The notes under the pieces are model-generated. The model saw only the letters and a program-made list of their open reading frames with translations. It was not told where the DNA came from and searched no databases. A stretch of 64,000 bases of DNA from Gemmobacter serpentinus (GTDB lineage: Bacteria > Pseudomonadota > Alphaproteobacteria > Rhodobacterales > Rhodobacteraceae): the NCBI RefSeq assembly GCF_008973825.1, contig NZ_WCHR01000016.1, forward strand, positions 248,001-312,000, written 5' to 3'. Shown here piece by piece: positions 19,899-38,229 of this stretch. Both the position numbers and the translations under genes were made by a program. Numbering within the stretch: the first letter of the stretch is position 1; every line of letters begins with the position of its first letter.

Positions 19899-20830
19899 CG
19901 ATTGCAGTGCTGGGCTCCGGGGCATTTGGCGCAGCACTGGCCGCCACCTTGGGGCGTGAGGGGCCGGTGGTGCTGTGGGGGCGATCGCAGACCGATCGCA
20001 CCATCCGCAAGCTGCCAGATCTGATCTTGCCGCAGGCGGTGCAGGTGACAAACGATCTGGATGCGACCGATGTGGCCAAGATCGTGCTTCTGGCCCTGCC
20101 GATGCAGCAACTGGCGTCATTCATCGATGCACAGGGCGCGCGCCTGCGCCACCGCCCGTTGGTGGCCTGCTGCAAGGGGGTTGATCTGCGCAGCGGCCTT
20201 GGCCCGGTGGAGATTCTGGCGCGCCTTGCCGGGCCATCGCCCGCCGTGCTGACGGGGCCAAGTTTTGCCACCGATATCGCGCGCGGCTTGCCCACCGCGT
20301 TGACGCTGGCCTGCGAAGATGAGGTGCTGGGCCAGCAGTTGCAGGAAAACCTGTCGACCTCGGTCCTGCGGCTGTATCGGTCATGCGATGTGATCGGGGC
20401 AGAGCTGGGTGGCGCGCTGAAGAATGTGATCGCCATCGCCGCGGGTGCGGTGATCGGGGCGGGCTTGGGGGATAGTTCTCGGGCGGCGCTGATGACGCGC
20501 GGCTATGCCGAGATGCTGCGCTTTGCGCTGGCGCGCGGCGCCCGGGCCGAGACCTTGGCGGGGCTGTCGGGCTTTGGCGATCTGGTGCTGACCTGCACCT
20601 CGCAGCAATCGCGCAACTTCTGCTATGGCCTCGCGCTGGGCGCGGGGCAGGCGTTCGATCTGTCCACCACGGTGGAAGGTGCCGCGACCGCCCGCGCGGT
20701 GGCGCAGATCGCCCGATCGGATGGGCTGGATATGCCGATCTCCACCATGGTGGCCGCGCTTGCCGACGGCAAGATCAGCGTGGCTGATGCCATGCAGAAC
20801 CTTTTGAACCGCCCTCTGAAACAGGAGTAG
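19895..20830 (+). CDS. gpsA: Glycerol-3-phosphate dehydrogenase [NAD(P)+]
   Basis: Makes sn-glycerol 3-phosphate from dihydroxyacetone phosphate for phospholipid synthesis. The 311-residue protein has the Rossmann motif [12 protein letters not shown], the substrate-site [18 protein letters not shown], catalytic K within [13 protein letters not shown] and [12 protein letters not shown]. It overlaps tsaD (ATGA) and is followed within 3 bases by the YciI gene. It is biosynthetic, unlike the catabolic glpD further right. Confidence 0.96.
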
Positions 20831-25881: not shown

Positions 25882-26035
25882 CGGAAAAGCCTCGCGGGTT
25901 CATTGTGGATCGCGCCACGGCGCGCCTGGCCAGAGTTTACGAAGGACCCCGCCTGACGCAAGGGCCGGACTGCATGACCCTGCCCACAGGCAGCGGCTTA
26001 CCCCGCCATCTATGCGCGTTTTTGTTACATATTTG

Positions 26036-26058
26036 TGAAAATCGAAGTGAAACGAAAA
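26036..26058. promoter_or_regulatory. Putative GlpR operator
   Basis: Two direct copies, GAAAATCGAA (26037-26046) and GAAACGAAAA (26049-26058), spaced 12 bp apart, lie in the 251-base gap between glpR and glpD. DeoR-type repressors often bind such repeated A-rich/CGAA half-sites. The rest of the gap shows no gene. Confidence 0.5.
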
Positions 26059-26132
26059 TTGGCTTTGATCGGTGCCCCGAAGTTGCTAACCGTGAAGCCT
26101 CAGGACAGACAGAAAACGGGCGGGAGGTCAGG

Positions 26133-27710
26133 GTGTCAGAAGCGGCTCCGGCAGGGGTGATCGACCTCTTTGTCATCGGCGGTGGCATCAATGGCTGCGG
26201 CATCGCGCGGGACGCCGCCGGGCGCGGGCTGTCGGTCCTCTTGGCCGAACAGGGCGATCTGGCGCAGGGTACCTCTTCGGCCTCGACCAAGCTGTTTCAT
26301 GGCGGCTTGCGCTATCTGGAATATTTCGAGTTCCACCTTGTGCGCGAGGCACTGGCCGAGCGCGAGACCCTGCTGCGTGCCATGCCGCATATCAGCTGGC
26401 CCATGCGTTTCGTGCTGCCCTATGACCCGGCGATGCGGTTCGAGAATGACACGCCCACCTCGCGCCTGCTGGGGCTTGTGATGCCCTGGATGCGCGGGCG
26501 GCGGCCTGCCTGGCTGATCCGACTAGGGCTGTTCCTTTACGACAATCTCGGCGGTCGCAAGATCCTGCCCGGCACGGCCAAGCTGGATCTGGCCGATGAT
26601 CCGGCCGGGCGGCCGCTGCGTCCGGGCTTCCGGCTGGCCTATGAATACAGCGATTGCTGGGTGCAGGATTCGCGCCTTGTCGTGCTGAATGCCCGCGATG
26701 CCGCGGCGCGGGGCGCGCGTATCCTGACCCGGAGCCGCGTGGTGGAGGCCGCGCGCCAGGGCGATCTTTGGCAGATCACTGTCGAGGGGCCAGAGGGTCG
26801 CGCGCAGTATCAGGCGCGGGCGCTGGTGAATGCCGGCGGGCCATGGGTCGAGGATGTGATCCGCAATGTCACGCATATCCGCAGCCGTGAAGGCGTGCGG
26901 CTGGTGCGCGGCAGCCATATCGTGGTGCCGAAACTTTACGATCACGAGCGCTGCTATTTCTTCCAGGGCAGCGATGGCCGTATCATCTTTGCCATTCCCT
27001 ATGAAGATGACTTCACCCTGATCGGCACCACCGACAAGGACCATCAGGGCAGCCCGCTGGATGCCCGCTGTTCGGATGAGGAGCGCGATTATCTGTGCGC
27101 CTTCGCCAGCCAGTATTTCGCGAAACCCGTCACCCCCGATCAGGTGGTCTGGACCTATTCTGGCGTGCGCCCCTTGTATAATGACGGGGCAAGTTCGGCG
27201 ACCGCCGCCACCCGCGAATATGTGCTGAGCCTAGATGAAGGCGGGGCACCCCTGCTGAATGTCTTTGGCGGCAAGATCACCACCTATCGCCGTCTGGCGG
27301 AACATGCGCTGGAAAAGCTGGCACGCTTCTTTCCAGCGGCGGGCGGCGACTGGACGGCGGGCGTTGCGCTGCCCGGCGGCGACTTTCCGGTCGATGGTGT
27401 GGCCGATCTGCGGGCGCGTCTGGGCGCCAGTTTCCCGTTCCTGACGCCCGCCCATGCCGCGCGGCTGGTGCGGACCTATGGCACCGACAGTTTTGCCCTG
27501 CTGCAAGGCGCCGAGGTGATGGAGGATCTGGGTGAGGATTTCGGTGCCACTCTGACCGGGGCGGAGGTCGACTGGCTGATGCGGCACGAATATGCCCGCA
27601 CGGCCGAAGACATCCTGTGGCGCCGCACCAAGCTGGGCCTGCATCTGGATGAGGCACAGCGCGCGCGGCTGGCCGCCCATATCGACCAGTTGGCGGCGCG
27701 CGCGGCCTGA
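26133..27710 (+). CDS. glpD: Aerobic glycerol-3-phosphate dehydrogenase
   Basis: A membrane-associated FAD enzyme that oxidises glycerol 3-phosphate to dihydroxyacetone phosphate and feeds electrons to quinone. The 525-residue protein has the FAD motif VIGGGINGCGIARDAAGRG at the N terminus, GTSSASTKLFHGGLRYLE, IGTTDKDHQG and VFGGKITTYRRLAE. The start is GTG at 26133, preceded by GGGAGG; the frame is open upstream without a ribosome site. It is followed by glpK after 104 bases. Confidence 0.96.
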   Translation: MSEAAPAGVIDLFVIGGGINGCGIARDAAGRGLSVLLAEQGDLAQGTSSASTKLFHGGLRYLEYFEFHLVREALAERETLLRAMPHISWPMRFVLPYDPAMRFENDTPTSRLLGLVMPWMRGRRPAWLIRLGLFLYDNLGGRKILPGTAKLDLADDPAGRPLRPGFRLAYEYSDCWVQDSRLVVLNARDAAARGARILTRSRVVEAARQGDLWQITVEGPEGRAQYQARALVNAGGPWVEDVIRNVTHIRSREGVRLVRGSHIVVPKLYDHERCYFFQGSDGRIIFAIPYEDDFTLIGTTDKDHQGSPLDARCSDEERDYLCAFASQYFAKPVTPDQVVWTYSGVRPLYNDGASSATAATREYVLSLDEGGAPLLNVFGGKITTYRRLAEHALEKLARFFPAAGGDWTAGVALPGGDFPVDGVADLRARLGASFPFLTPAHAARLVRTYGTDSFALLQGAEVMEDLGEDFGATLTGAEVDWLMRHEYARTAEDILWRRTKLGLHLDEAQRARLAAHIDQLAARAA

Positions 27711-27814
27711 ATGCGCGCGGCCGGACGGTTGCGGCCTGACGGTTTCCGGCGCGCCCTTCCATCGCTAAGCTGTGGACGGGCACCGACAGGAGGCCCCGAT
27801 AAAGAAGGCATCGC

Positions 27815-29308
27815 ATGACCCGCCATATCCTTGCCATCGATCAGGGCACGACCTCGTCCCGGGCGATCCTGTTCGACCAGACCTTGCGCCCGATCGCCTC
27901 GGCCCAGCAGGAATTTGCACAGCATTTCCCCGCCTCGGGCTGGGTGGAGCATGATCCGGGCGATTTGTGGTCATCCGTGGTGCAGACGGTGCGCCAGACG
28001 CTGGACCGCGCCGGGATCGGCGCGGCGCAGGTCGCGGGCCTTGGCATCACCAACCAGCGCGAAACCACCCTGCTTTGGGATCGGGCCACCGGCCAGCCGC
28101 TGCACCGTGCCATTGTCTGGCAGGACCGGCGCAGCGCGGGGATCTGCGATGACCTGCGCGCAGGTGGGCATGAGGCCTTGATTGCGGCGCGCACCGGGCT
28201 GCTACTGGACCCCTATTTCTCGGGCACCAAGCTGAAATGGCTGCTGGATCACATCCCCGATGCCCGCGCCCGCGCGGCGCGGGGCGAGCTGGCCTTTGGC
28301 ACGGTCGACAGCTGGCTGATCTGGAACCTGACCGGCGGCAAGGTCCATGCAACCGACGCCACCAACGCCGCGCGGACACTGATCTTCGATATCAGCCGCA
28401 ACGCATGGGACGCAGAGATCTGCGCCTTGCTGGACATTCCGATGGCGCTGCTGCCGCAAGTGCGTGACAGCGCCGATGAATTCGGCGTGACGGAACCCGA
28501 TCTTTTCGGCGCGGCGATCCCGATCCGGGGTGTGGCGGGCGATCAGCAGGCCGCGACGGTCGGGCAGGCCTGCTTCCGCCCAGGCATGATGAAATCGACC
28601 TATGGCACCGGCTGTTTCGCGCTGCTGAATACCGGGGCCGCGCGGGTGGCCTCTAGCAACCGGCTGCTGACGACGGTTGCCTATCGCCTGAACGGGCAAA
28701 GCACCTATGCGCTGGAGGGCTCGATCTTCGTGGCGGGCGCGGTGGTGCAATGGCTGCGTGACGGGCTGGGGGTGATCGACAATGCGGGGGGCACACAGGC
28801 GCTGGCCGAAAGCGCCGACCCGGCGCAGGCGCTGGTGATGGTGCCCGCCTTTACCGGCCTTGGCGCGCCCTATTGGCGGCCCGATTGTCGGGGCGCAATC
28901 TATGGTCTGACCCGCAATTCCGGTCCGGCGGAATTTGCCCGCGCGGCGCTGGAAAGCGTGGGCCATCAGACCCGCGATCTGCTGGAGGCCATGCAGGCCG
29001 ACTGGCCGGGGGGCGCGGCCACGGCGCTGCGCGTCGATGGCGGCATGGCCAGAAGCGACTGGACGATGCAATATCTGGCCGACATCCTGGGCGCGCCGGT
29101 GGATCGCCCGCAGGTGAACGAGACCACGGCGCTGGGCGCGGCCTATCTGGCCGGGCTTCAGGCCGGGCTTTGCCCCGATCCCGACACCTTCGCCCGCGAA
29201 TGGGCGCTGGAGCGGCGGTTTGACCCTGCCATGCCTGCGGCGACACGCGATAGTCGCCATGCGCGCTGGCAGCGGGCGGTGCAGGCCACCATGCTGATGG
29301 GCGGTTAA
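27815..29308 (+). CDS. glpK: Glycerol kinase
   Basis: Phosphorylates glycerol to glycerol 3-phosphate. The 497-residue FGGY kinase has the N-terminal ATP loop [51 protein letters not shown] and [14 protein letters not shown]. No glycerol facilitator or ABC transporter lies beside it, so uptake genes must be elsewhere. Its stop codon shares a TTAA with the stop of the convergent amidohydrolase gene. Confidence 0.97.
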
Positions 29309-30783
29309 TCCAGCTTTTTGAATGTCGGGGGGAACAGGCTTTGCGCTGAGGGATGGCCCCAGGTCCGGTCGGGATATTTGGCCAGCAGCCCGTCAAACTG
29401 CGCCTGCGCGCGCGCCCTGGCCGCCGCCATATCCAGCCCCGGCACCGCGCCATCGCGCATCGACAGCCGCCCGTCGACAAAGACCGCCTTTGTCACCCGA
29501 CCCGAGGCGCCGAAGATCAGGCTTTGCACCGGATCGATGCGGGGGGCGAAATGGCTGTCAGCCATGTCGAAGATCGCGATATCGGCCTTGGCCCCGGCTT
29601 GCAGGCGGCCCAGATCGGGGCGGCGCAGCGCATCGGCCCCGCCGATGGTGGCGGCATTGAACACCTCGGCCGTGGTCAGCCCCTCTGATCCGCCCGCTGC
29701 CGCGCGGCCCATCATCAGCGCAACCGCCATGTTCAGCACCATGTCGGGTGGGGCGGTATCGGTGCCCATGCCGATATTGATACCCATATCATGGCAGCGC
29801 CGGAACGAGCGCAGCATCTCGCCATCGCGGGCATAGACCAGCGGGCAATGCGCGATGGTAACGCCGTGATCGGCATAAAGCGCCAGATCCGCCGCAGTGG
29901 CCTCGACCGCGTGGGGGGCAATCAGCCGATCATTTAGCAAGCCATGGGCGGCCAGCCATTGCGGCGCGGTGGTGCCATGCAGCTTTTGCACCGTTGCCCG
30001 TTCCATCCTGCCTTGCGCCATATGCAGGCGCACCGGCAGATCGGCCTCACGCGCGGCAGCCATGGTGCGGCGCAGCAGCTCCAGCGTGCATGTCTCCACC
30101 CGGTCAGGGGCCAGCATCGGCTGGATCAAGCCGCCATGCGCGCCCTTGATTCGTGCCGCGAAATCCAGCGCGGCCTCCAGCCCCGCCATGCCGCGCGCGG
30201 CGTCAAATTGCGGCTCCAGCACGCCGGGCGCGGTGCAGACCATTCCACCGGCCCGGTAGGCCGGGCCAAGATAGACCCGCAGGCCCAGATCGCCCGCAGC
30301 CTCGGCTGCCGCTTCGAACTCCGCCACCGTTTCGGCCCATTCCCGATAGAACAGCGAGGCGATGGGAAGGGCGGTGGTGATGCCATGGCGCAGCAATTGC
30401 GCAAAGGCATAGCGTTTCTGGAATGCCAGCTCATCCGGCGTATACATCTCATAGGGGCCGGCATCGACATAGCTTTGCGGCCAGACCCGGCCCTTGGCCC
30501 AGCCGGGCCCGTAATCCACCGTCAGCAGCGTGGTATCCAGATCCGACAGCGCATCCAGATCAATGAAACCGGGCGAGATCAGCACCTCGCCCAGATCGAT
30601 GCGCCGCGCCACCTCGCCTTCAAAGCGGGGGCCGGTGTAAAGGATGCTGTTGCCTTCAAACACGATCTCGCCATCTTCCAGCAGGCGGTGCTGGCCCGCC
30701 TCATGCGCGATGATCCAGCGGGCGGTCAGCGCCGTGCGACCCGCCGGGCGCTGGCCAAGAACAAGATCATCCAGCCGCATCAT
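29305..30783 (-). CDS. Amidohydrolase-superfamily protein lacking the usual HxH metal motif
   Basis: A 492-residue amidohydrolase of the cytosine-deaminase/chlorohydrolase type. Later metal and catalytic positions are visible: H253 (RLHMAQ), H290 (APHAVEA), H311 ([11 protein letters not shown]) and D341 ([10 protein letters not shown]). At the end of the first strand, where GFIDxHxH is expected, the sequence is [13 protein letters not shown] (71-83), so both histidines are replaced. Either an aspartate-rich site binds the metal or the enzyme is mononuclear. The start at 30783 overlaps the racemase stop (ATGA); it is the last gene of the ABC-transporter operon. Confidence 0.85.
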
Positions 30784-31511
30784 GCGGCCCCTGCATGGGC
30801 GGCCAGATCGCCGGATTTGTCGCGTGGCCAGGCATAGGCCCCGGATTTGGAGGTGCGGTAGCCCGCGCCCGCCAAAGCCTCCGCGAGCCTGATCGCGGCG
30901 GTGACCCCGTCGATCACCGGCAGCCCCGCCTGATCCGACAGCCATTGGCACAGATCGGCCATGCCGGCACAGCCCAGCACGATGGCCTCGGCCCCGTCCT
31001 GTGTCATGGCGGCGCGGGTTTCGGCCAGCAGCCGCGCGCGGGCGGTCGCGGGATCGGCCTCCAGCGCCAGAACCGGCAGATCCACCGCGCGCACCCGGCG
31101 GCAGCGGCCCGCCGCGCCATAGGCCGTCACCAGATCCTCGATCACCGGGACCGAGCGGGGCAGGGTGGTGATGACGGAAAACCGCGCCGATAGTGTGGTT
31201 GCGACCTGCACTGCCGCCTGACAGATGCCGATCACCGGCGCGCCCGCCACCTCGCGCGCGGCGGCAAGGCCCGGATCGTCGAAACAGGCGATGACATGGG
31301 CGCCCGCGCCTGAACGATCGGCCTCGCGAATGGCGGCCAGCATCGCGGGCACCGCCATGGCCTCATCATGATAGCCCTCGATCGAGACCGGGGCGCCGGC
31401 ACCCGTGCGGGCATCAATCACCGTGCCGGGACTGGCGGCGGCCCGTGCGGCGGCGGCAATCGTCGCGGTCATGGCCGTTGTGGAATTGGGGTTGATGACA
31501 TGGATGCGCAT
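30780..31511 (-). CDS. Asp/Glu (hydantoin) racemase-family protein
   Basis: A 243-residue protein with the two-cysteine active site of the aspartate/glutamate/hydantoin racemase superfamily: C76 in ACFDDPG and C181 in LGCAGMADL. It begins INPNSTTAMT, typical of hydantoin and Asp/Glu racemases. It could interconvert stereoisomers of a cyclic amide, or act like a maleate-isomerase-type relative. Start and stop overlap its neighbours (TGATG before, ATGA after), so it is tightly coupled in the operon. Confidence 0.85.
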   Translation of the reverse strand: MRIHVINPNSTTAMTATIAAAARAAASPGTVIDARTGAGAPVSIEGYHDEAMAVPAMLAAIREADRSGAGAHVIACFDDPGLAAAREVAGAPVIGICQAAVQVATTLSARFSVITTLPRSVPVIEDLVTAYGAAGRCRRVRAVDLPVLALEADPATARARLLAETRAAMTQDGAEAIVLGCAGMADLCQWLSDQAGLPVIDGVTAAIRLAEALAGAGYRTSKSGAYAWPRDKSGDLAAHAGAA

Positions 31512-32164
31512 CAGGCGGTGACCTTTTCCGGCGGGGTGATCTGCGCCAATTCATGCGGGATCAGCGCCTCGGGCTTCTTCAGCTCGAACTGTCGGTCCGA
31601 GGTGATGTAATTGTCGGCATGTAGCCGGGCGATGGGTTGATAGGTTTCGGGGTTCACATAGCGACCGCTGGCATCAAGGCAGCGATCATCGACATGCATC
31701 TGCACCACCTCGCCGATGATCAGCACCCGGCGCGGGTAATCCAGGATCCGCTCCACCCGGCACTCAAAGGCGCAGGGGCTTTCGGCAATGCGGGCGGCCT
31801 TGATCTGCTGGCAGGGCACCGGGGTCAGCCCGGCAAAGGCGAGTTCATCCACATCCGTGGCAAAGTTGACGCCGCAAACGATCATCGCATCGGCCAGCGC
31901 CATATCGACCATGTTCACAACAAATTCGCCACTGCGGCGGATATTGGCGACCGTATCCTTTTCCTCGCCATTGCCGCGATTCTGGATGCCCAGCACCACC
32001 AAAGGCGGCTCATGGGAGAAGACGTTGAAAAAGCTCATCGGGGCCGCGTTGTTATGTCCTGCCTCCGACCGGGTGCCGACCAGCGCAATCGGACGCGGGC
32101 CGATAAAGTTGGTCAGCAGGCGATAGCGATCGGGCGCCGGAAGGGCGGTAAAGTCGTAATCCAT
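31511..32164 (-). CDS. Flavin-reductase-like FMN-binding split-barrel protein
   Basis: A 217-residue protein with the flavin-reductase-like fold: PRPIALVGTRSEAGHNNAAPMSFF near residues 23-46, PPLVVLGIQNR and DTVANIRRSGEFVVNM. Members bind FMN and either reduce flavin for a partner oxygenase or act on their own. No oxygenase gene lies in this operon. The start at 32164 has AGGAG upstream and sits 14 bases after the CodA-like gene. Confidence 0.85.
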   Translation of the reverse strand: MDYDFTALPAPDRYRLLTNFIGPRPIALVGTRSEAGHNNAAPMSFFNVFSHEPPLVVLGIQNRGNGEEKDTVANIRRSGEFVVNMVDMALADAMIVCGVNFATDVDELAFAGLTPVPCQQIKAARIAESPCAFECRVERILDYPRRVLIIGEVVQMHVDDRCLDASGRYVNPETYQPIARLHADNYITSDRQFELKKPEALIPHELAQITPPEKVTA

Positions 32165-32178
32165 CTGAATGGCTCCTG

Positions 32179-33339
32179 TCAGGCGGCGGGCAGCAACTGG
32201 CCGCGCCGCACCACGCGCCGGTCCGCAGGGCGGCGGCACAGCGCATCCCCGGGGCCGTCGCAGGCGATCATCACGAAATCGGCGCGCCCGCCGGGATGCA
32301 GCCCGTAATCGGCCAGCCCGATGGCGCGGGCGGCCTGATGGGTGGCGCAGCCAAGCGCGCGGCGGAGATCCTCATCGGTGTTCCAATCAAAGCGGTAGGC
32401 GGTCAGGAAGGCGCGTTCCAGCATGTCGCCATTGCCCAAGGGTGACCAGGCATCGCGGATCCCGTCCGACCCGCAGCAGACCGTGACGCCCATCGCGGTC
32501 AACGCCTCGACCGGCGGCACGGCGGTATCGGCGGGGGCCGAGGTCATCAGCGAAATGCCCAGATCGGCCAGCCTGCGCCCGATCCGCGCCAGCCGCGCCT
32601 CGGGGATCATGCCAAGGCAATAGGCGTGGCTGATCATCACGCGGCCCGCCAGGCCCGAGGCTTCCGTATAGTCGGCGATGCGTTCCACCTGCCAGGCCCC
32701 CAGATCGCCCTTGTCATGCAGGTGGATATCGACGCCCACGCCCTTTTCCACCGCCAGATCAAAGACAAAGCGCAGTTGCCCGTCAGGGTCGCCATCAATG
32801 CCAGCGGGATCAAGCCCGCCCACGGTTTCCACCCCCATCTCGATCGCGGCGCGGACCAGGTCAGTGGTGCCGGGGCGGCAGAGCAGCCCCTGCTGCGGAA
32901 AGGCCACGAATTGCAGGTCGATCCGGTCGGCCCAGGTCTCGCGCAGCCGGAACATCGCCTCGACATGCGTGAGACCCATATCGGGGGCCACATCGATATG
33001 CGATCGGATGGCGGTGGTGCCATAGGCCAACATCCGGGCCAGCAGCCGCCCGGCGCGGTCTTCGGGCGGGGTGGTGTTGGCGGTCAGCACCCGACGTTCA
33101 TTCTCGATATAGTCGCGCAGTTTGCCCGCGCGGTAACCGGGCTGCCAGCCCTCGCCCCAGAGAGTCTTGTCCAGATGGACATGCGGCTCCACAAAGGCCG
33201 GCAGCACCAGCCGCCCCGCGCCATCAAAGGCATCGGGGGCAGTTACATCCGGGCCGAGCGCCTCGATCCGCCCGCCCGCGCAACGAATGCCGATGGCGTT
33301 GCCGTCGATGTCGCGCAGATTGGTAAAGGTGGTGGTCAT
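32179..33339 (-). CDS. CodA-like amidohydrolase (cytosine deaminase family)
   Basis: A 386-residue metal-dependent hydrolase resembling cytosine deaminase. It has the full ligand set: HVHLDK (H53, H55), HLHDKGDLGAW (H206, H208), ISHAYCLGM (H238) and CCGSDGIRDAWSP (D292). In this family the metal is Fe or Zn and substrates are cyclic amidines, cyclic amides or triazine-like compounds. It is the first enzyme gene after the binding protein of the transporter, so it probably acts first on the imported compound. Confidence 0.9.
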   Translation of the reverse strand: MTTTFTNLRDIDGNAIGIRCAGGRIEALGPDVTAPDAFDGAGRLVLPAFVEPHVHLDKTLWGEGWQPGYRAGKLRDYIENERRVLTANTTPPEDRAGRLLARMLAYGTTAIRSHIDVAPDMGLTHVEAMFRLRETWADRIDLQFVAFPQQGLLCRPGTTDLVRAAIEMGVETVGGLDPAGIDGDPDGQLRFVFDLAVEKGVGVDIHLHDKGDLGAWQVERIADYTEASGLAGRVMISHAYCLGMIPEARLARIGRRLADLGISLMTSAPADTAVPPVEALTAMGVTVCCGSDGIRDAWSPLGNGDMLERAFLTAYRFDWNTDEDLRRALGCATHQAARAIGLADYGLHPGGRADFVMIACDGPGDALCRRPADRRVVRRGQLLPAA

Positions 33340-33366
33340 GGTCGCTCTCCTCCCGGTTCGGTCATC

Positions 33367-33390
33367 CCGGCCCCATGATGACAGGGCCGG
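33367..33390 (-). terminator. Hairpin between binding-protein gene and CodA-like gene
   Basis: CCGGCCC (33367-33373) and GGGCCGG (33384-33390) form a perfect 7-bp stem just after the binding-protein stop, without a U tract. Such hairpins often protect the binding-protein message and lower downstream expression. Confidence 0.5.
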
Positions 33391-33412
33391 ATCATTTCTG
33401 CGGACGGGCGGA

Positions 33413-34453
33413 TCAGCCCTTCAGGCGGGTCCAGATCCGGTCGCGCAATTCGCGCGCGGCGGGGCCGCAATCCTGCGTCGGAACCAGCCGAGATGCGTAT
33501 TCCTCGGGCATGTTGATCGCATCCATCTTGCGCCATTTTTCATCCAGAAACGCGTCCGATTTCATCGCATTGCCATAGGCGATGGAATTGGAAACGGTTG
33601 CCGCGATTTCCGGCGTCATCATCCAGTTGATGAAGATCTTGGCGTTTTCCGGGTGGGGCGCATTGGCTGGCACCGCGAAATTGTCGCGGAACATCGGCGT
33701 GCCCTCTTTGGGATAGATGAAGCGGATGGTGTCGCGTTGCAGCGTGGCGCGGGCGGTGGCACCGTTCCAGACGTGGAACATCGACACCTCGCCCGAGGCC
33801 ATGCGGTCAACCGTGCTGTCAGAGGTATACATTTTCAGATTGGGCTTGGCGGATTCCAGCAGTTCCAGAATGCGCTTGGCGTCGTCATTGCTTTCGGTGC
33901 ATTGCGGAATGCCAAGATAAAGCGATGCTGCCAGCACCGCATCGCTTGCGGTATCCAGCTCGGCGATCTTGCCGACAAATTCGGGGCGCGGCTCGAAAAA
34001 CTCTTTCCAGCTATGCTCGATCTCGCCGCCGCCAAGGACTGCGCTGTCATAGGCAAGCCCGGTCACCCCCCAAAGGTAAGGCGCGCTGTATTCATGCTTG
34101 GGGTCGAAGTTCGGGTTCTTGAACGCGTCCTTCATATGGGCATAGTTCGGCATCGCATGGGTGTCGATCTTCAGCAAAAGACCGTCTTGGATCAGGCCGG
34201 GGATCACATAATCCGAGGGCACGATCACGTCATAGGCAGCCCCGCCCGATTGCAGCTTGGCCAGCAGCGTATCGTTGCTGTCAAAGCCGTCCAGGATGAC
34301 CTTGATCCCGGTTTCCTTTTCAAAACGCGCCAGCAACTCCACCGGATAGTAATCGGTCCAGTTGTAGAAATAGAGCGTCTTTTCAGAGTCTTGTGCCATC
34401 ACCGGCAGCGCAGTCAGCGCCGATAGGGCGAGGCCCAGCAGGGTCTTTTTCAT
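33413..34453 (-). CDS. Spermidine/putrescine-type ABC transporter substrate-binding protein
   Basis: A 346-residue PotD/PotF-like periplasmic protein. A signal peptide spans residues 1-20 (cleavage after PVMA), followed by KTLYFYNWTDYYP, the family's opening, and DVIVPSDYVIPGLIQ and TGLAYDS. The acidic pocket that holds polyamines in PotD is not obvious by eye. The enzymes downstream suggest a nitrogen heterocycle or other cationic compound rather than a simple polyamine. The start at 34453 has GAGGAAG upstream. Confidence 0.9.
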   Translation of the reverse strand: MKKTLLGLALSALTALPVMAQDSEKTLYFYNWTDYYPVELLARFEKETGIKVILDGFDSNDTLLAKLQSGGAAYDVIVPSDYVIPGLIQDGLLLKIDTHAMPNYAHMKDAFKNPNFDPKHEYSAPYLWGVTGLAYDSAVLGGGEIEHSWKEFFEPRPEFVGKIAELDTASDAVLAASLYLGIPQCTESNDDAKRILELLESAKPNLKMYTSDSTVDRMASGEVSMFHVWNGATARATLQRDTIRFIYPKEGTPMFRDNFAVPANAPHPENAKIFINWMMTPEIAATVSNSIAYGNAMKSDAFLDEKWRKMDAINMPEEYASRLVPTQDCGPAARELRDRIWTRLKG

Positions 34454-34487
34454 CGGGGTCTTCCTCTCTGTTGGTATGTTTATTGCC

Positions 34488-35261
34488 TCAGCGCCGCAGG
34501 CGGCTGAGGAAGAAGGAAAGCGAGACAAGCAGGACCGAGATCACCAGCATGACGGTGGAGATCGCGTTGATTTCCGGCGTGATCCCGGCGCGGATGGCCG
34601 AGAAGATATAGACCGGCAGCGTGGTGGTGCCTGGCCCCGACAGGAAGAACGAGGTCAGGAAATCATCCAGTGAGGTGACGAAGGCCAGCGTGAACCCGGC
34701 CAGAATCCCGGGCCACAGGAGCGGCAGCGTGACGCGCCGGAAGGTGCGGAAGCGATTGGCGTAAAGATCCTGCGCGGCCTCTTCATAGCTGCGCGACATG
34801 CCCTCCAGGCGGGCACGGATCGGCAGATAGGCAAAGGGGATGCAGAAGGCGGTGTGGGCAAGGATCATCGCGCCAAGCCCCAGCTGCACCCCGAGCGCCA
34901 CGAAGAGCATGAGCGTCGCCACCGCCACCACGATCTCGGGCAGGATCAGCGGCATGTTCAGCACCGCCTCCACCGCGCCACGCCGCGGAAAGGCGCGCGA
35001 AGTTGCAAGGGCTGCCAGCAGCGCAAATGTCGTGGCACCGATGGCCGCGGCAAAGGCCAGGATCAATGAATTGACCGTGGCTGCCTGGATTGACGGGTTT
35101 GTCAGGATGCGGCCATACCAATCCAGCGAGGCATGTGACCAGATCGTCGCGGTGCGATTGGCGTTGAAGCTGTAGACCACCAACACCAGCACCGGCACAT
35201 AGAGATAGGCCAGCACCAGCAGCGAGACCTCGCGCGTCATCGGGAAGCGGCGGATGTTCAT
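34488..35261 (-). CDS. Spermidine/putrescine-type ABC transporter permease (PotC-like)
   Basis: A 257-residue inner-membrane permease with six hydrophobic segments and the EAA loop EEAAQDLYANRFRTFRRVTLP near residues 160-180. It overlaps the PotB-like gene by 4 bases and precedes the binding-protein gene. Confidence 0.92.
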   Translation of the reverse strand: MNIRRFPMTREVSLLVLAYLYVPVLVLVVYSFNANRTATIWSHASLDWYGRILTNPSIQAATVNSLILAFAAAIGATTFALLAALATSRAFPRRGAVEAVLNMPLILPEIVVAVATLMLFVALGVQLGLGAMILAHTAFCIPFAYLPIRARLEGMSRSYEEAAQDLYANRFRTFRRVTLPLLWPGILAGFTLAFVTSLDDFLTSFFLSGPGTTTLPVYIFSAIRAGITPEINAISTVMLVISVLLVSLSFFLSRLRR

Positions 35262-36139
35262 TTGGCCCTCCGGTTGCGCAGCAGGGCCACGCTTGTCATC
35301 ACGATCAGCATCAGGGCCAGCAGCACGACCGAAAGCGCCGCGCCAAAGGGCCAGTTGCGCGAGGCGCCGAACTGCATCTGGATGATATTGCCCAGCATCA
35401 GGGTCTTGCCGCCGCCCAGCAGGGCCGGTGTCACGAAAGCCCCAAGGCAGGGGATGAAGACCAAGAGCGATCCGGCCAGGATGCCCGGCCCCGCAATCGG
35501 CAGCACCACCCGGCGCAGCGCCCGCGCTCGCGTGGCGCCCAGATCGTGCGCGGCTTCCAGCAGGCGCCAGTCGAATTTCTCGAACACGGTGTAAAGTGGC
35601 AGGATCATGAAGGGCAGGAAGGAATAGGTCAGCCCGATCGCCACCGCCAGATCATTGTAAAGCAGTTGCACCGGGCCAAAGGGCGAGACGGCATTGACCG
35701 TCTGGGCCACGAGCCCGTCTTCGCGCAGGATGATGAGCCAGGCGTAGTTGCGCACCAGAAGGTTGGTCCAGAACGGGATGGTGATCAGCAGCAGCATGAT
35801 GTCGCGCTGCGTGCGCCCCAAGCCTGCCATCCATAATGCAACGGGCAGGCCGAACAGCAGGCAAAGCCCGGTGGTCAGCGCCGCCTGCAGCACCGAGCGC
35901 AGCAGGATCAGCAGATAGCTGGTATTCACGATCATCGTGCCGTCAAAGTCTTCTTCCCAGACCAGACGCAGGTAATTCGCGCCGGACGGGACCGAGGCCC
36001 AGTCGACCCCGCTGGTGCCGCCCTTTTGCAGCAGCGAGATCCAGAACATCAAAAGCAGCGGCACGCCGACCAGCAGGCCGATGGTGGCAAGCGCCGGGGT
36101 CAGCAGGCCAAGGCGGCGCAGGGTGGGGCTGGCGCTCAT
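35258..36139 (-). CDS. Spermidine/putrescine-type ABC transporter permease (PotB-like)
   Basis: A 293-residue permease with six hydrophobic segments and the EAA loop [20 protein letters not shown] near residues 200-220. It overlaps both neighbours by 4 bases (ATGA), so the ATPase and both permeases are made in balance. Confidence 0.92.
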
Positions 36140-37194
36140 TGGTCCAGCACCCGCAAGGCATCTGCGGGCAGGGCAAGGCCCACGCGGCTGCCGGATTCGA
36201 GCGGGGTTTGCGCCACCTCGGATTGGCGCAGCAGGAAGGTGCCGCCGCCGGGCAGTTCCAGCTTGTGCAGAAGCGCCGTGCCCAGATAGGCAGAATGGAT
36301 CAGTGTTGCATCCAGCGTGCCGGCCCCCGGCGCTGTCAGCCTTGCCCGCTCTGGCCGGATCGCCAGCGTCACGGCACCGGCCTTGCCATGCGCCATGGGC
36401 AGCGTCACGCCTTGGCCGATGCGCAACTGGTCACCGGGCAGGGCCTCGGCTTCCAGCAGATTGATGTCACCGATGAAGTCGGCAACAAACCGATGCGTCG
36501 GGGCCTCGTAAATCTCGCGCGGGGGGCCCATTTGCAGGATATGCCCGCCCTGCATCACCGCGACCCGGTCGGAGAGCGTCAGCGCCTCTTCCTGGTCATG
36601 GGTCACGAACAGGAAGGTGATGCCAGCCTCGGCCTGCAACTGCTTCAACTCGATCTGCATTTCCTTGCGCAGCTTCAGGTCCAGCGCGGAAAGCGGCTCA
36701 TCCAGCAGCAGCACCTGTGGGCGCGGTGCGAGCGCGCGGGCCAGCGCCACGCGCTGTTGTTGGCCGCCGGACAGTTCCGATGGACGGCGGCGCGCAAAGC
36801 TGTGCATCCGCACCATCTCCAGCGCCTCGCCGACGCGGGAGCGGATCTTGTCGCGCGCCATGCCCTGTTCTTCCAGTGCGAAGCCCACATTCTGCTCCAC
36901 CGTCAGATGCGGAAACAGGGCATAGCTTTGGAACACGGTGTTCACCGGGCGGCGGAAGGGCGGGGTCTGGGTCAGATCCTGCCCGCCGATGGCGATCACG
37001 CCGCGATCCGCCAGTTCAAACCCGGCGATCAGCCGCAAGAGCGTGGTCTTGCCGCAACCCGAGGGGCCAAGCAGGGTAAAGAACTCCCGCTCCCCGATCT
37101 CGACCGAGACATCGTCGAGCACGCGCACCGCCGATGCGCCCCGGCCGAAGCTCTTGCTGATATTGCGGATGGAGACTGCGGAAGACCCGGACAT
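36136..37194 (-). CDS. Spermidine/putrescine-type ABC transporter ATP-binding protein (PotA-like)
   Basis: A 352-residue ATPase with Walker [10 protein letters not shown] (about 41-49), Q-loop [10 protein letters not shown], signature [15 protein letters not shown], Walker [12 protein letters not shown] and a C-terminal TOBE/OB domain (from about residue 270). It is the first gene of the eight-gene operon. ATG at 37194 is preferred to the GTG at 37200 because AGGTGG lies just before it. It is divergent from the GntR gene across a region with five operator half-sites. Confidence 0.93.
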
Positions 37195-37233
37195 TGCCAC
37201 CTCATGTCGTTGATGGGGGCATCGTTCTGCATC

Positions 37234-37472
37234 GCATACGATTCTGTCAATATCGTATGCAATACTTAAGTGAAAATTGTATGCACTAACGCGCGTCGCC
37301 TGATCCGCGATCCTTCGTCGGAAGATCTGCCTATCTGTGCAGCAGATCGCAAAAGCTCAGGTTATCTGGTGAAGTCCATGCACAGAAATTCATGCCTGGC
37401 ACCGCAAGCGCGACATATCGGAAAGCGATTGACTGTTTCGTGGCATACGATGATCTTGCAAATTGCATACAA
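37234..37472. promoter_or_regulatory. Five GntR operator half-sites between the ABC operon and its regulator
   Basis: GCATACGAT (37234-37242) and ATCGTATGC (37252-37260) form an inverted pair. TTGTATGC (37277-37284), GGCATACGAT (37442-37451) and TTGCATACAA (37463-37472) repeat the same core. One cluster lies before the PotA-like gene, the other just before the GntR start, so both divergent promoters can be controlled. The remaining sequence of this 288-base gap shows no gene. Confidence 0.7.
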
Positions 37473-37482
37473 GCGAGAGATC

Positions 37483-38229
37483 ATGATGAGTGATGACGCC
37501 CCCGTTCCGCGCAAACCGGCCCGCCCGCGCAAGGCCCGTATTGCGGAGAAAATGCCAAGCCGCACCGAAAAGGTGCATGAGGCGCTTCGGCAGGCGATCA
37601 TCGAGCAGCGCCTTGCCCCCGGTGCCCGGCTGCCCGAAGATACGATTGGTGAATCCTTCGGCACCAGCCGCACCATCGCGCGTGAGGCGCTGTTGCGGCT
37701 TTCGGTTGAAGGGCTGGTTGATCTGCTGCCCAATCGCGGTGCCTTTGTCGCCAACCCCTCGCTGGATGAGGGGCGCGATGTGTTTGTCGTGCGGCGCGGG
37801 CTGGAGCGGATGGTGGTCAAGCAACTGGCGGGCCAGCTGAGCGCGAGCCAGATCGAAGAACTGGGCCGGATGCTGGAACAGGAGGAATTGGCCGGGGCCA
37901 GCAACGAGTCCGAGGCGATCCGGCTGGCGGGCGAGTTCCACTTGCGGCTGGCCGAAATGACCGGCAATCGCCTGCTGATCCGCTATCTGACCGAGACGGT
38001 CTCGCGCTGTTCGCTGGTGCTGACCATTTATGGCCGCCCGCATTCGGTGGATTGTGGCATCGATGAACACCGCCAGATCATCGAGGCGCTGATTGCGGGG
38101 GATGAGAACCGCGCCGCCGATCTGATGGAGACGCATCTGAGCAAGGTGGCGGGCCGCGCCCTGCTGGAATGCCGCAAGACCGAAAGCCTGCAGGATGTGC
38201 TGACGGCCTTTGCGCGGCGCATCGACTGA
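37483..38229 (+). CDS. GntR-family (FCD domain) transcriptional regulator
   Basis: A 248-residue regulator with a basic N-terminal tail (PRKPARPRKAR), a winged helix (about 50-78, GESFGTSRTIAREALLRLSVEGLV) and an FCD domain with the metal-ligand pattern LRLAEMTGN and DEHRQIIEALIAGDE (histidines about 151 and 204). The start is ATG at 37483 or 37486. Divergent from the polyamine-type ABC and amidohydrolase operon, it is the probable specific regulator, binding the GCATACGAT elements on both sides. Confidence 0.9.
   Translation: MMSDDAPVPRKPARPRKARIAEKMPSRTEKVHEALRQAIIEQRLAPGARLPEDTIGESFGTSRTIAREALLRLSVEGLVDLLPNRGAFVANPSLDEGRDVFVVRRGLERMVVKQLAGQLSASQIEELGRMLEQEELAGASNESEAIRLAGEFHLRLAEMTGNRLLIRYLTETVSRCSLVLTIYGRPHSVDCGIDEHRQIIEALIAGDENRAADLMETHLSKVAGRALLECRKTESLQDVLTAFARRID

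Follow-up and report, generated by a model that had tools for sequence, protein, structure and literature searches.

The DNA considered here, referred to as the window, is a stretch of 64,000 nucleotides from Gemmobacter serpentinus, on whose minus strand, at 29305-37194, eight genes form a single closely spaced run. The first four encode an ATP-binding cassette (ABC) importer of the PotABCD type, and the remainder encode an amidohydrolase of the CodA/AtzC type (AH1), a flavin-reductase-like protein (FlvR), a hydantoin/allantoin racemase-like protein (Rac), and a second amidohydrolase (AH2), with a GntR/FCD regulator gene lying divergently upstream (Table 1). All eight open reading frames (ORFs) were recovered at the coordinates and on the strand given in an earlier note on this DNA, and the gene set is real and conserved among relatives. 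The tight overlaps described in that note were confirmed as regards close spacing throughout, but only four of the seven junctions overlap, the gaps in bases being -4 (potA/potB), -4 (potB/potC), +34 (potC/potD), +73 (potD/AH1), +14 (AH1/FlvR), -1 (FlvR/Rac), and -4 (Rac/AH2). Pfam assigns the run to a Pot-type ABC importer, Flavin_Reduct, and the Asp/Glu/hydantoin racemase family (PF01177), in agreement with the earlier naming of FlvR and Rac, while in NCBIfam AH1 reaches 496 bits against PRK05985 (cut-off 408) and AH2 711 bits against PRK06151 (cut-off 416).

Table 1. Coordinates of the genes and putative control sites at the locus, in window positions
Feature	Position	Strand	Basis or remark
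potA-like ABC ATPase	36136..37194	-	ORF, Pfam, NCBIfam; GTG at 37200 is an alternative start
potB-like permease	35258..36139	-	ORF, Pfam, NCBIfam
potC-like permease	34488..35261	-	ORF, Pfam, NCBIfam
potD/potF-like periplasmic binding protein	33413..34453	-	Under polyamine equivalog cut-offs (190/582, 170/636 bits)
AH1, CodA/AtzC-type amidohydrolase (PRK05985)	32179..33339	-	All metal ligands present
FlvR, flavin-reductase-like protein	31511..32164	-	Pfam Flavin_Reduct
Rac, hydantoin/allantoin racemase-like	30780..31511	-	Closest solved relative 3qvj; C76 and C181 kept
AH2, PRK06151 'chlorohydrolase family' amidohydrolase	29305..30783	-	Asp/Leu-rich run replaces HxH
GntR/FCD regulator, divergent	about 37483..38229	+	Pfam/NCBIfam; start codon inferred
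Operator-like palindrome ATCGCATACGAT	37231..37242	+	Motif scan
Operator-like palindrome ATCGTATGCAAT	37252..37263	+	Motif scan
Operator-like site ATTGTATGCACT, 1 mismatch	37276..37287	+	Motif scan
Operator-like site ATTGCATACAAG, 1 mismatch, directly before gntR	37462..37473	+	Motif scan
TTGACA, putative -35, with an operator copy on either side	37245..37250	-	Present upstream of potA at the seven other Pot-type loci as well

Features of the four enzymes

AH1 is, as previously proposed, a CodA-like amidohydrolase with a complete subtype III metal site (HxH, H, H, D), formed by H53, H55, H206, H238, and D292. The same ligands occur in 69/69 rows from loci with an Opp/Dpp-type importer and in 2/2 Pot-type rows, in a table that leaves out 7 of 78 rows carrying no importer label and holds just two Pot-type rows, AH1 having been required to lie within 400 bases of AH2. 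Among solved structures, the closest is 6nbo (303 bits), an uncharacterised protein deposited under the AtzC name, followed by AtzC (189 bits) and cytosine deaminases (141-153 bits). AH1 resembles AtzC (N-isopropylammelide isopropylaminohydrolase; 2qt3, 4cqb) and Escherichia coli CodA over most of its length, sharing their metal ligands and most pocket residues. In an alignment made by eye, AtzC residues H60, H62, K65, Q160, D188, H217, H219, H249, D303, and W309 correspond to AH1 residues H53, H55, K58, Q149, D177, H206, H208, H238, D292, and W298, whereas the position of AtzC N304 (D314 in CodA) is a glycine in AH1 (G293), as it is at locus L118 and in 69/69 Opp-type rows; the operon that houses AH1 also differs. 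The portions of the AtzC study at hand (PMC4577212) identify H60, H62, H217, and D303 as zinc ligands, K65, Q160, H219, N304, and W309 as ligand contacts, and H249A as a variant without detectable activity; they also report that most of the ligand contacts can be mutated without loss of activity, which warns against over-reading the residues kept in AH1.

Judged by its residues, AH1 looks like an aminohydrolase or N-dealkylase with an altered ring contact, and a role as ring opener was rejected on account of its AtzC/CodA class. The earlier description of two ring-opening-type hydrolases is not supported: AtzC and CodA, the nearest characterised relatives of AH1, remove exocyclic amines, AH2 has an AtzA/TrzN fold from which the HxH ligands are gone, and ring opening is demonstrated for neither enzyme. 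According to the accessible text of Sterner and co-workers, such enzymes act on amino-substituted rings by conjugate addition (PMC12828455), and relatives of AtzB are described in the available part of a further paper of theirs as natively hydrolysing N2,N2-dimethylguanine (PMC13054789); for AH1-like proteins, a native substrate is given in neither of these portions.

AH2 proved as unusual as had been supposed. Its AlphaFold model (mean pLDDT 88.7) has AtzA as the nearest fold (Foldseek E 5.4e-32), with 19-23% identity to the ten best fold matches. It shares the overall fold of AtzA, TrzN, and isocytosine-type deaminases (4v1x, 4lh8, 7ww2) and retains the barrel and the strand 5, 6, and 8 ligands of subtype III (H254, H291, D342), but differs from those enzymes in having D-x-L (D77-A78-L79) where strand 1 should end in HxH, within the run D75-L-D77-A-L79-x-D81-x-D83-T84, and in the invariance of D75, D77, D81, and D83. 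D-x-L occupies this position in 87/87 aligned rows, most of which were found through the motif DLDA, and D75, D77, L79, D81, D83, and T84, together with H254, E261, H291, H312, R319, and D342, are identical in all of them. In a search free of motifs, HxH was absent at 26/30 places (locus L030 has N at 77), and the remaining four, at 33-34% identity, keep it as NIHSH. As far as residues can tell, the pocket of AH2 is conserved and its first metal site departs from the textbook form.

Rac matches 3qvj, which we take to be HpxA of K. pneumoniae, with 213 bits over nearly its full length, and the next relative is the allantoin racemase 5lfd, also matched over nearly the full length. C76 and C181 are present in 62/62 rows of at least 50% identity and align with the cysteines of 3qvj, both of which are serine in entry 3qvk, so that Rac carries both sequence marks of an HpxA-type racemase, the full-length match and the two cysteines; 5lfd, in contrast, has no cysteine opposite C76. 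Rac differs from both in its setting, being encoded with amidohydrolases and an importer rather than with urate-oxidation genes. The closest relatives of FlvR are a 2-nitrobenzoate nitroreductase and an NtaB-named protein. Neither an oxygenase partner for FlvR, as in a two-component flavin monooxygenase, nor a hydantoinase with an N-carbamoylase was recognised by Pfam and NCBIfam among the eight genes and gntR, farther neighbours not having been searched against these families; of all elements of the model, the role of FlvR is the least secure.

Recurrence of the enzymes and exchange of the importer

Relatives were collected by a genome scan with the AH2 alignment, in which at least 589 stretches matched one of two patterns, both AH2 motifs and one of them DLDA, 501 were confirmed, and the best 80 were kept as loci; six plasmid loci extend this set to 86. 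AH1 (at least 38% identity to a reference) is encoded at 78/80 loci and all four enzymes at 57/80, AH1 and AH2 being neighbours at 69/78 loci and FlvR and Rac at 57/57 loci having both. Among the 58 loci of at least 21 kb, 41 encode all four. At L118, the importer is followed by AH1 and, 4.6 kb further on, by a 33% AH1-like gene, the 21 kb covered being otherwise free of cassette genes; at L119, FlvR (83%) and Rac (75%) accompany an AH1-type gene and the gene labelled AHx, with no AH2 in 18.7 kb, although AH2 copies lie elsewhere on the same plasmid; and at L120, Rac, FlvR, and GntR stand beside an Opp importer, about 6 kb from the nearest amidohydrolase. These layouts indicate that the parts are modular, and because L118 has the importer and AH1 without any other cassette gene, AH1 is most likely the first enzyme. 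At a further locus (L125), FlvR and Rac are accompanied by an M20 hydrolase as well as an amidohydrolase.

The gene set is an accessory trait. Within a sample of the order, AH2 was matched at 1e-60 in 26/244 genomes, three of them solely through relatives that keep HxH, and the Pot-type binding protein was matched at 1e-120 in 1/61 genomes, the window's own, and in 0/10 congeners. By record titles, the hosts are soil, plant-associated, and marine Alphaproteobacteria. The AH2 of a record titled Bacillus subtilis SK6B4 (L108) falls beside Pseudochrobactrum in the tree, its branch being very short, and that assembly is probably mislabelled or contaminated. Four amidohydrolase genes and two genes for binding proteins, among them those for AH4, SBP2, and a second AH2 paralogue, occur together at a rhizobial locus (L033, 8655-20013), which suggests several related ligands. 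In Rhizobium leguminosarum (L124, 5488-11816), an AH1-like gene (43%) occurs with genes for an FAD oxidoreductase, a questin-oxidase-family protein, an '8-oxoguanine deaminase', and another amidohydrolase.

The importer had been called polyamine-type, a label that holds for its PotA/B/C/D-like families, while no subunit reaches its NCBIfam equivalog cut-off (PotD 190.1/582, PotC 223.8/326, PotB 201.2/348, PotA 371.6/482 bits). The system resembles E. coli PotABCD and PotFGHI in its protein families and its four-gene make-up as an ABC importer, and differs in these scores and in carrying T and F for D168 and W255 of PotD. In a comparison by eye, made with the residue roles that we assume for the polyamine site of PotD, W34, Y85, W229, D257, and Y293 are kept and E171 is replaced by D, D168 by T, and W255 by F, from which the pocket would appear to offer space for a cationic group without being a spermidine site.

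Pot-type importers occur at 7 of the 80 loci, and across all 86 the count is 70 Opp/Dpp-type, 7 Pot-type, and 9 with neither, several of these nine being short contigs, so that absence refers to the available DNA. In the AH2 tree (87 rows), a 100/100 clade nested among the Opp rows unites the eight Pot rows with three importer-less rows and one Opp row (L039). Owing to these four other rows, three changes of the Pot label are required, and as the tree is rooted at its midpoint, one importer swap and its direction are inferences. Because most relatives pair the same enzymes with an Opp/Dpp-type importer, the type of importer is a poor guide to the ligand, and reading the ligand from it was rejected as decisive, the type having been swapped among relatives.

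The probable control region

A 12-bp palindrome, WTYGYATRCRAW, placed around TTGACA, is shared by the region upstream of potA in the window and its counterparts at seven further Pot-type loci, and TTGACA is present in 8/8 of these regions. Each of the six Pot-type loci with an importer-adjacent regulator gene has one to three exact copies near that gene. At up to one mismatch, the 64-kb window contains four matches, all within 37231-37473 in the gap between gntR and potA; since shuffled windows contain 5.86 on average, the signal lies in the clustering and not in the number. Since Pot-type loci were the source of the motif, a fairer test was provided by ten Opp-type loci whose regulator is of the same type (45-51% identity), where the 400 bases upstream of the gene contain a site with at most one mismatch in 10/10 and an exact site in 4/10. 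For the regulator type as a whole (6 Pot and 10 Opp loci), exact sites occur at 10/16 against 0.04 expected from shuffling, and sites with at most one mismatch at 16/16 against 0.49. Exact sites were also located at L118, in front of the importer, at L119, in the stretch from gntR to FlvR, and at L039, in the stretch from AHx to the importer.

This locus is the only place in the window's genome where the extended pattern occurs without mismatch; a two-mismatch match on contig C52 was judged to be chance, and the other two-mismatch match overlaps the main site. Other genomes contain several two-mismatch matches, and a reversed control gave 0-3 per strand, so single weak matches are uninformative. 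The palindromes may be bound by the GntR/FCD protein, and the eight-gene run is probably co-regulated. At L118, an ornithine-cyclodeaminase-family gene and an annotated xanthine permease are preceded by a second operator-like pair (20037-20128), the permease giving no Pfam match at 1e-10; if real, the pair would add members to the regulon.

At the 3' end of the run, the operon meets a glycerol-use block (25905-29308) with genes named from their translations as glycerol-3-phosphate dehydrogenase-like and glycerol kinase-like, the kinase ORF (27815-29308) being convergent with AH2 and abutting its end.

Proposed pathway and competing explanations

The earlier proposal that the genes form one catabolic unit, importer included, for a small nitrogen compound is supported, and its mechanism class is likely. 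At a probability of roughly 55%, the unit is under GntR/FCD control and imports a cationic N-heterocycle that loses amino groups stepwise and ends as a hydantoin- or ureide-like product handled by the racemase. According to this model, the PotABCD-type importer would take up a small cationic N-heterocycle, namely a cyclic guanidine or amidine with an amino or alkylamino group. AH1, as an AtzC-type metal hydrolase, would exchange the exocyclic amine for oxygen, probably in the first step, and AH2, with its AtzA/TrzN fold and rewired first metal site, might cleave the product further, at a C-N or other bond. This would leave a hydantoin- or ureide-like ring with a chiral carbon that the HpxA-like racemase epimerises, allowing both enantiomers to be used, and FlvR, an FMN-type protein encoded beside the racemase gene, would act nearby. 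Final ring opening could be performed by AH2 or by a housekeeping hydantoinase or allantoinase, and the GntR/FCD protein would be the repressor of the unit. Hydantoin-utilisation (hyu) clusters are similar in combining hydrolases, in some strains, with a racemase or ABC importer nearby, as far as the available portions of PMC3546935 describe them, but the eight genes include neither the D-hydantoinase/dihydropyrimidinase nor the N-carbamoylase of those clusters, so the run does not qualify as one of them.

Several observations weigh against this model. Selection of loci by AH2 similarity and motif biases the co-occurrence counts, and among the loci of at least 21 kb the Rac gene is missing from 14/58 and the FlvR gene from 9/58, in some cases near a locus edge; because these genes are missing from part of the loci, FlvR and Rac need not act on the main route. 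Among the other Pot-type operons, three (L040, L043, L054) have the racemase and four of seven (L041, L042, L045, L046) lack it, so that the racemase is no fixed step of the stepwise hydrolysis suggested earlier; the genomes of L042 and L046 encode a 53-55% racemase elsewhere, beside different importer genes. The ligand could differ between Opp- and Pot-type importers, and AH2 may lack hydrolytic activity. At loci with the other GntR type, the exact operator occurs at 0/56 and near sites at 32/56 against 1.59 expected, so that the operator there is at best a variant of the motif.

The strongest competitor is a special case of the favoured class, in which the ligand is a product of purine breakdown, for instance guanidinohydantoin/iminoallantoin or an N-alkylated purine, AH1 and AH2 yield an allantoin-like compound, Rac is an allantoin racemase, and breakdown is completed by the usual ureide route; a chance of somewhat over one in five is accorded to it. 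It fits the racemase, whose relatives are 3qvj and then 5lfd, and the native action of AtzB relatives on N2,N2-dimethylguanine. An ORF cluster for (S)-ureidoglycine aminohydrolase lies near the cassette at 8/86 loci, with 4/4 of the tested enzymes over the NCBIfam equivalog cut-offs, but the other 78 loci have none in the available DNA, five of the eight are Ensifer/Sinorhizobium, and at L032 the gene is about 6 kb from AH2. The allantoinase at L037 scores over the TIGR03178 cut-off, though under two PRK allantoinase cut-offs, and has relatives of just 29-35% in 7 other genomes of the 10 searched and none in two plasmids. Three xanthine-dehydrogenase-type hydroxylase genes stand beside the cassette of Sulfitobacter sp. 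W027 (L157, 13721-17396), whereas no xanthine dehydrogenase was recognised beside AHx in genome G305 (L158) from the first 60 residues per ORF. In the window's genome, an ORF for OHCU decarboxylase adjoins a ureidoglycine-aminohydrolase-like ORF away from the operon, and no second racemase was found there at 1e-15. Against the purine route also stands the lack of any urate-oxidation gene in the operon by Pfam. The portion at hand of the study on the caffeine C-8 oxidation cluster reports no allantoin-racemase homologue in that cluster (PMC4408171), and the literature search returned no paper on bacterial guanidinohydantoin breakdown. Overall, ureide-type neighbour genes favour a hydantoin- or ureide-type product without fixing the substrate.

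Compatible with any of these pathways, AH2 could be a pseudoenzyme that merely supports AH1, as inactive dihydroorotase homologues support some aspartate transcarbamoylases. In favour of this idea, to which odds of about one in five are given, are the loss of HxH in all aligned family rows and the frequent adjacency of AH1 and AH2, while the six residues from H254 to D342 that are identical throughout argue for retained catalysis, other genes separate AH1 from AH2 in Pot-type operons, and AH1-type genes occur without an adjacent AH2 at L118 and L119, the latter having AH2 elsewhere on its plasmid.

A dedicated route for hydroimidazolones derived from glycated arginine, such as MG-H1, is improbable. 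In it, AH1 would cut the exocyclic C-N bond and free ornithine and 5-methylhydantoin, a chiral hydantoin of the sort expected for a racemase of this family, and AH2, whose first metal site is free of histidine, would be a new type of amidohydrolase centre. The operator-like pair before the ornithine-cyclodeaminase-family gene at L118 would be in line with such a route, and the exchange between peptide- and polyamine-type importers would, if it were true, fit an amino-acid-bearing cation. An ectoine-type pathway was also considered and rejected, though no search aimed at it was made. An ordinary polyamine importer followed by unrelated enzymes is very improbable: the binding protein is PotD/PotF-like by sequence, but it scores far under the polyamine cut-offs, AH1 follows the importer at 8/8 other Pot-type loci (L118 included), and the same enzymes and operator motif also accompany Opp importers. 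Breakdown of s-triazines or other xenobiotics along the lines of AtzA to AtzC is equally improbable. In its favour, AtzC is the closest characterised relative of AH1, above the cytosine deaminases, and AtzA the nearest fold of AH2, but AH1 matches the uncharacterised 6nbo far better, the AtzC N304 position is glycine, AH2 lacks HxH and is deeply diverged across Rhizobiaceae and Rhodobacterales, no cyanuric acid hydrolase was found among the eight genes by Pfam, and the racemase would be left unexplained.

The stepwise removal of amino groups from an imported cationic heterocycle remains the preferred explanation. Literature searches, covering open-licence papers, returned no description of this operon, which as far as seen is previously uncharacterised, and the earlier statement that no described pathway has exactly this set stands within the same coverage. 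A regulon is defined in Alphaproteobacteria, and the class of nutrient is now narrow enough for screening. The AH2 family has lost HxH and kept the rest of its pocket, which makes its metal use and chemistry directly testable, and the occurrence of AtzC-like and AtzA-fold enzymes together in a natural operon bears on the origins of the atrazine enzymes.

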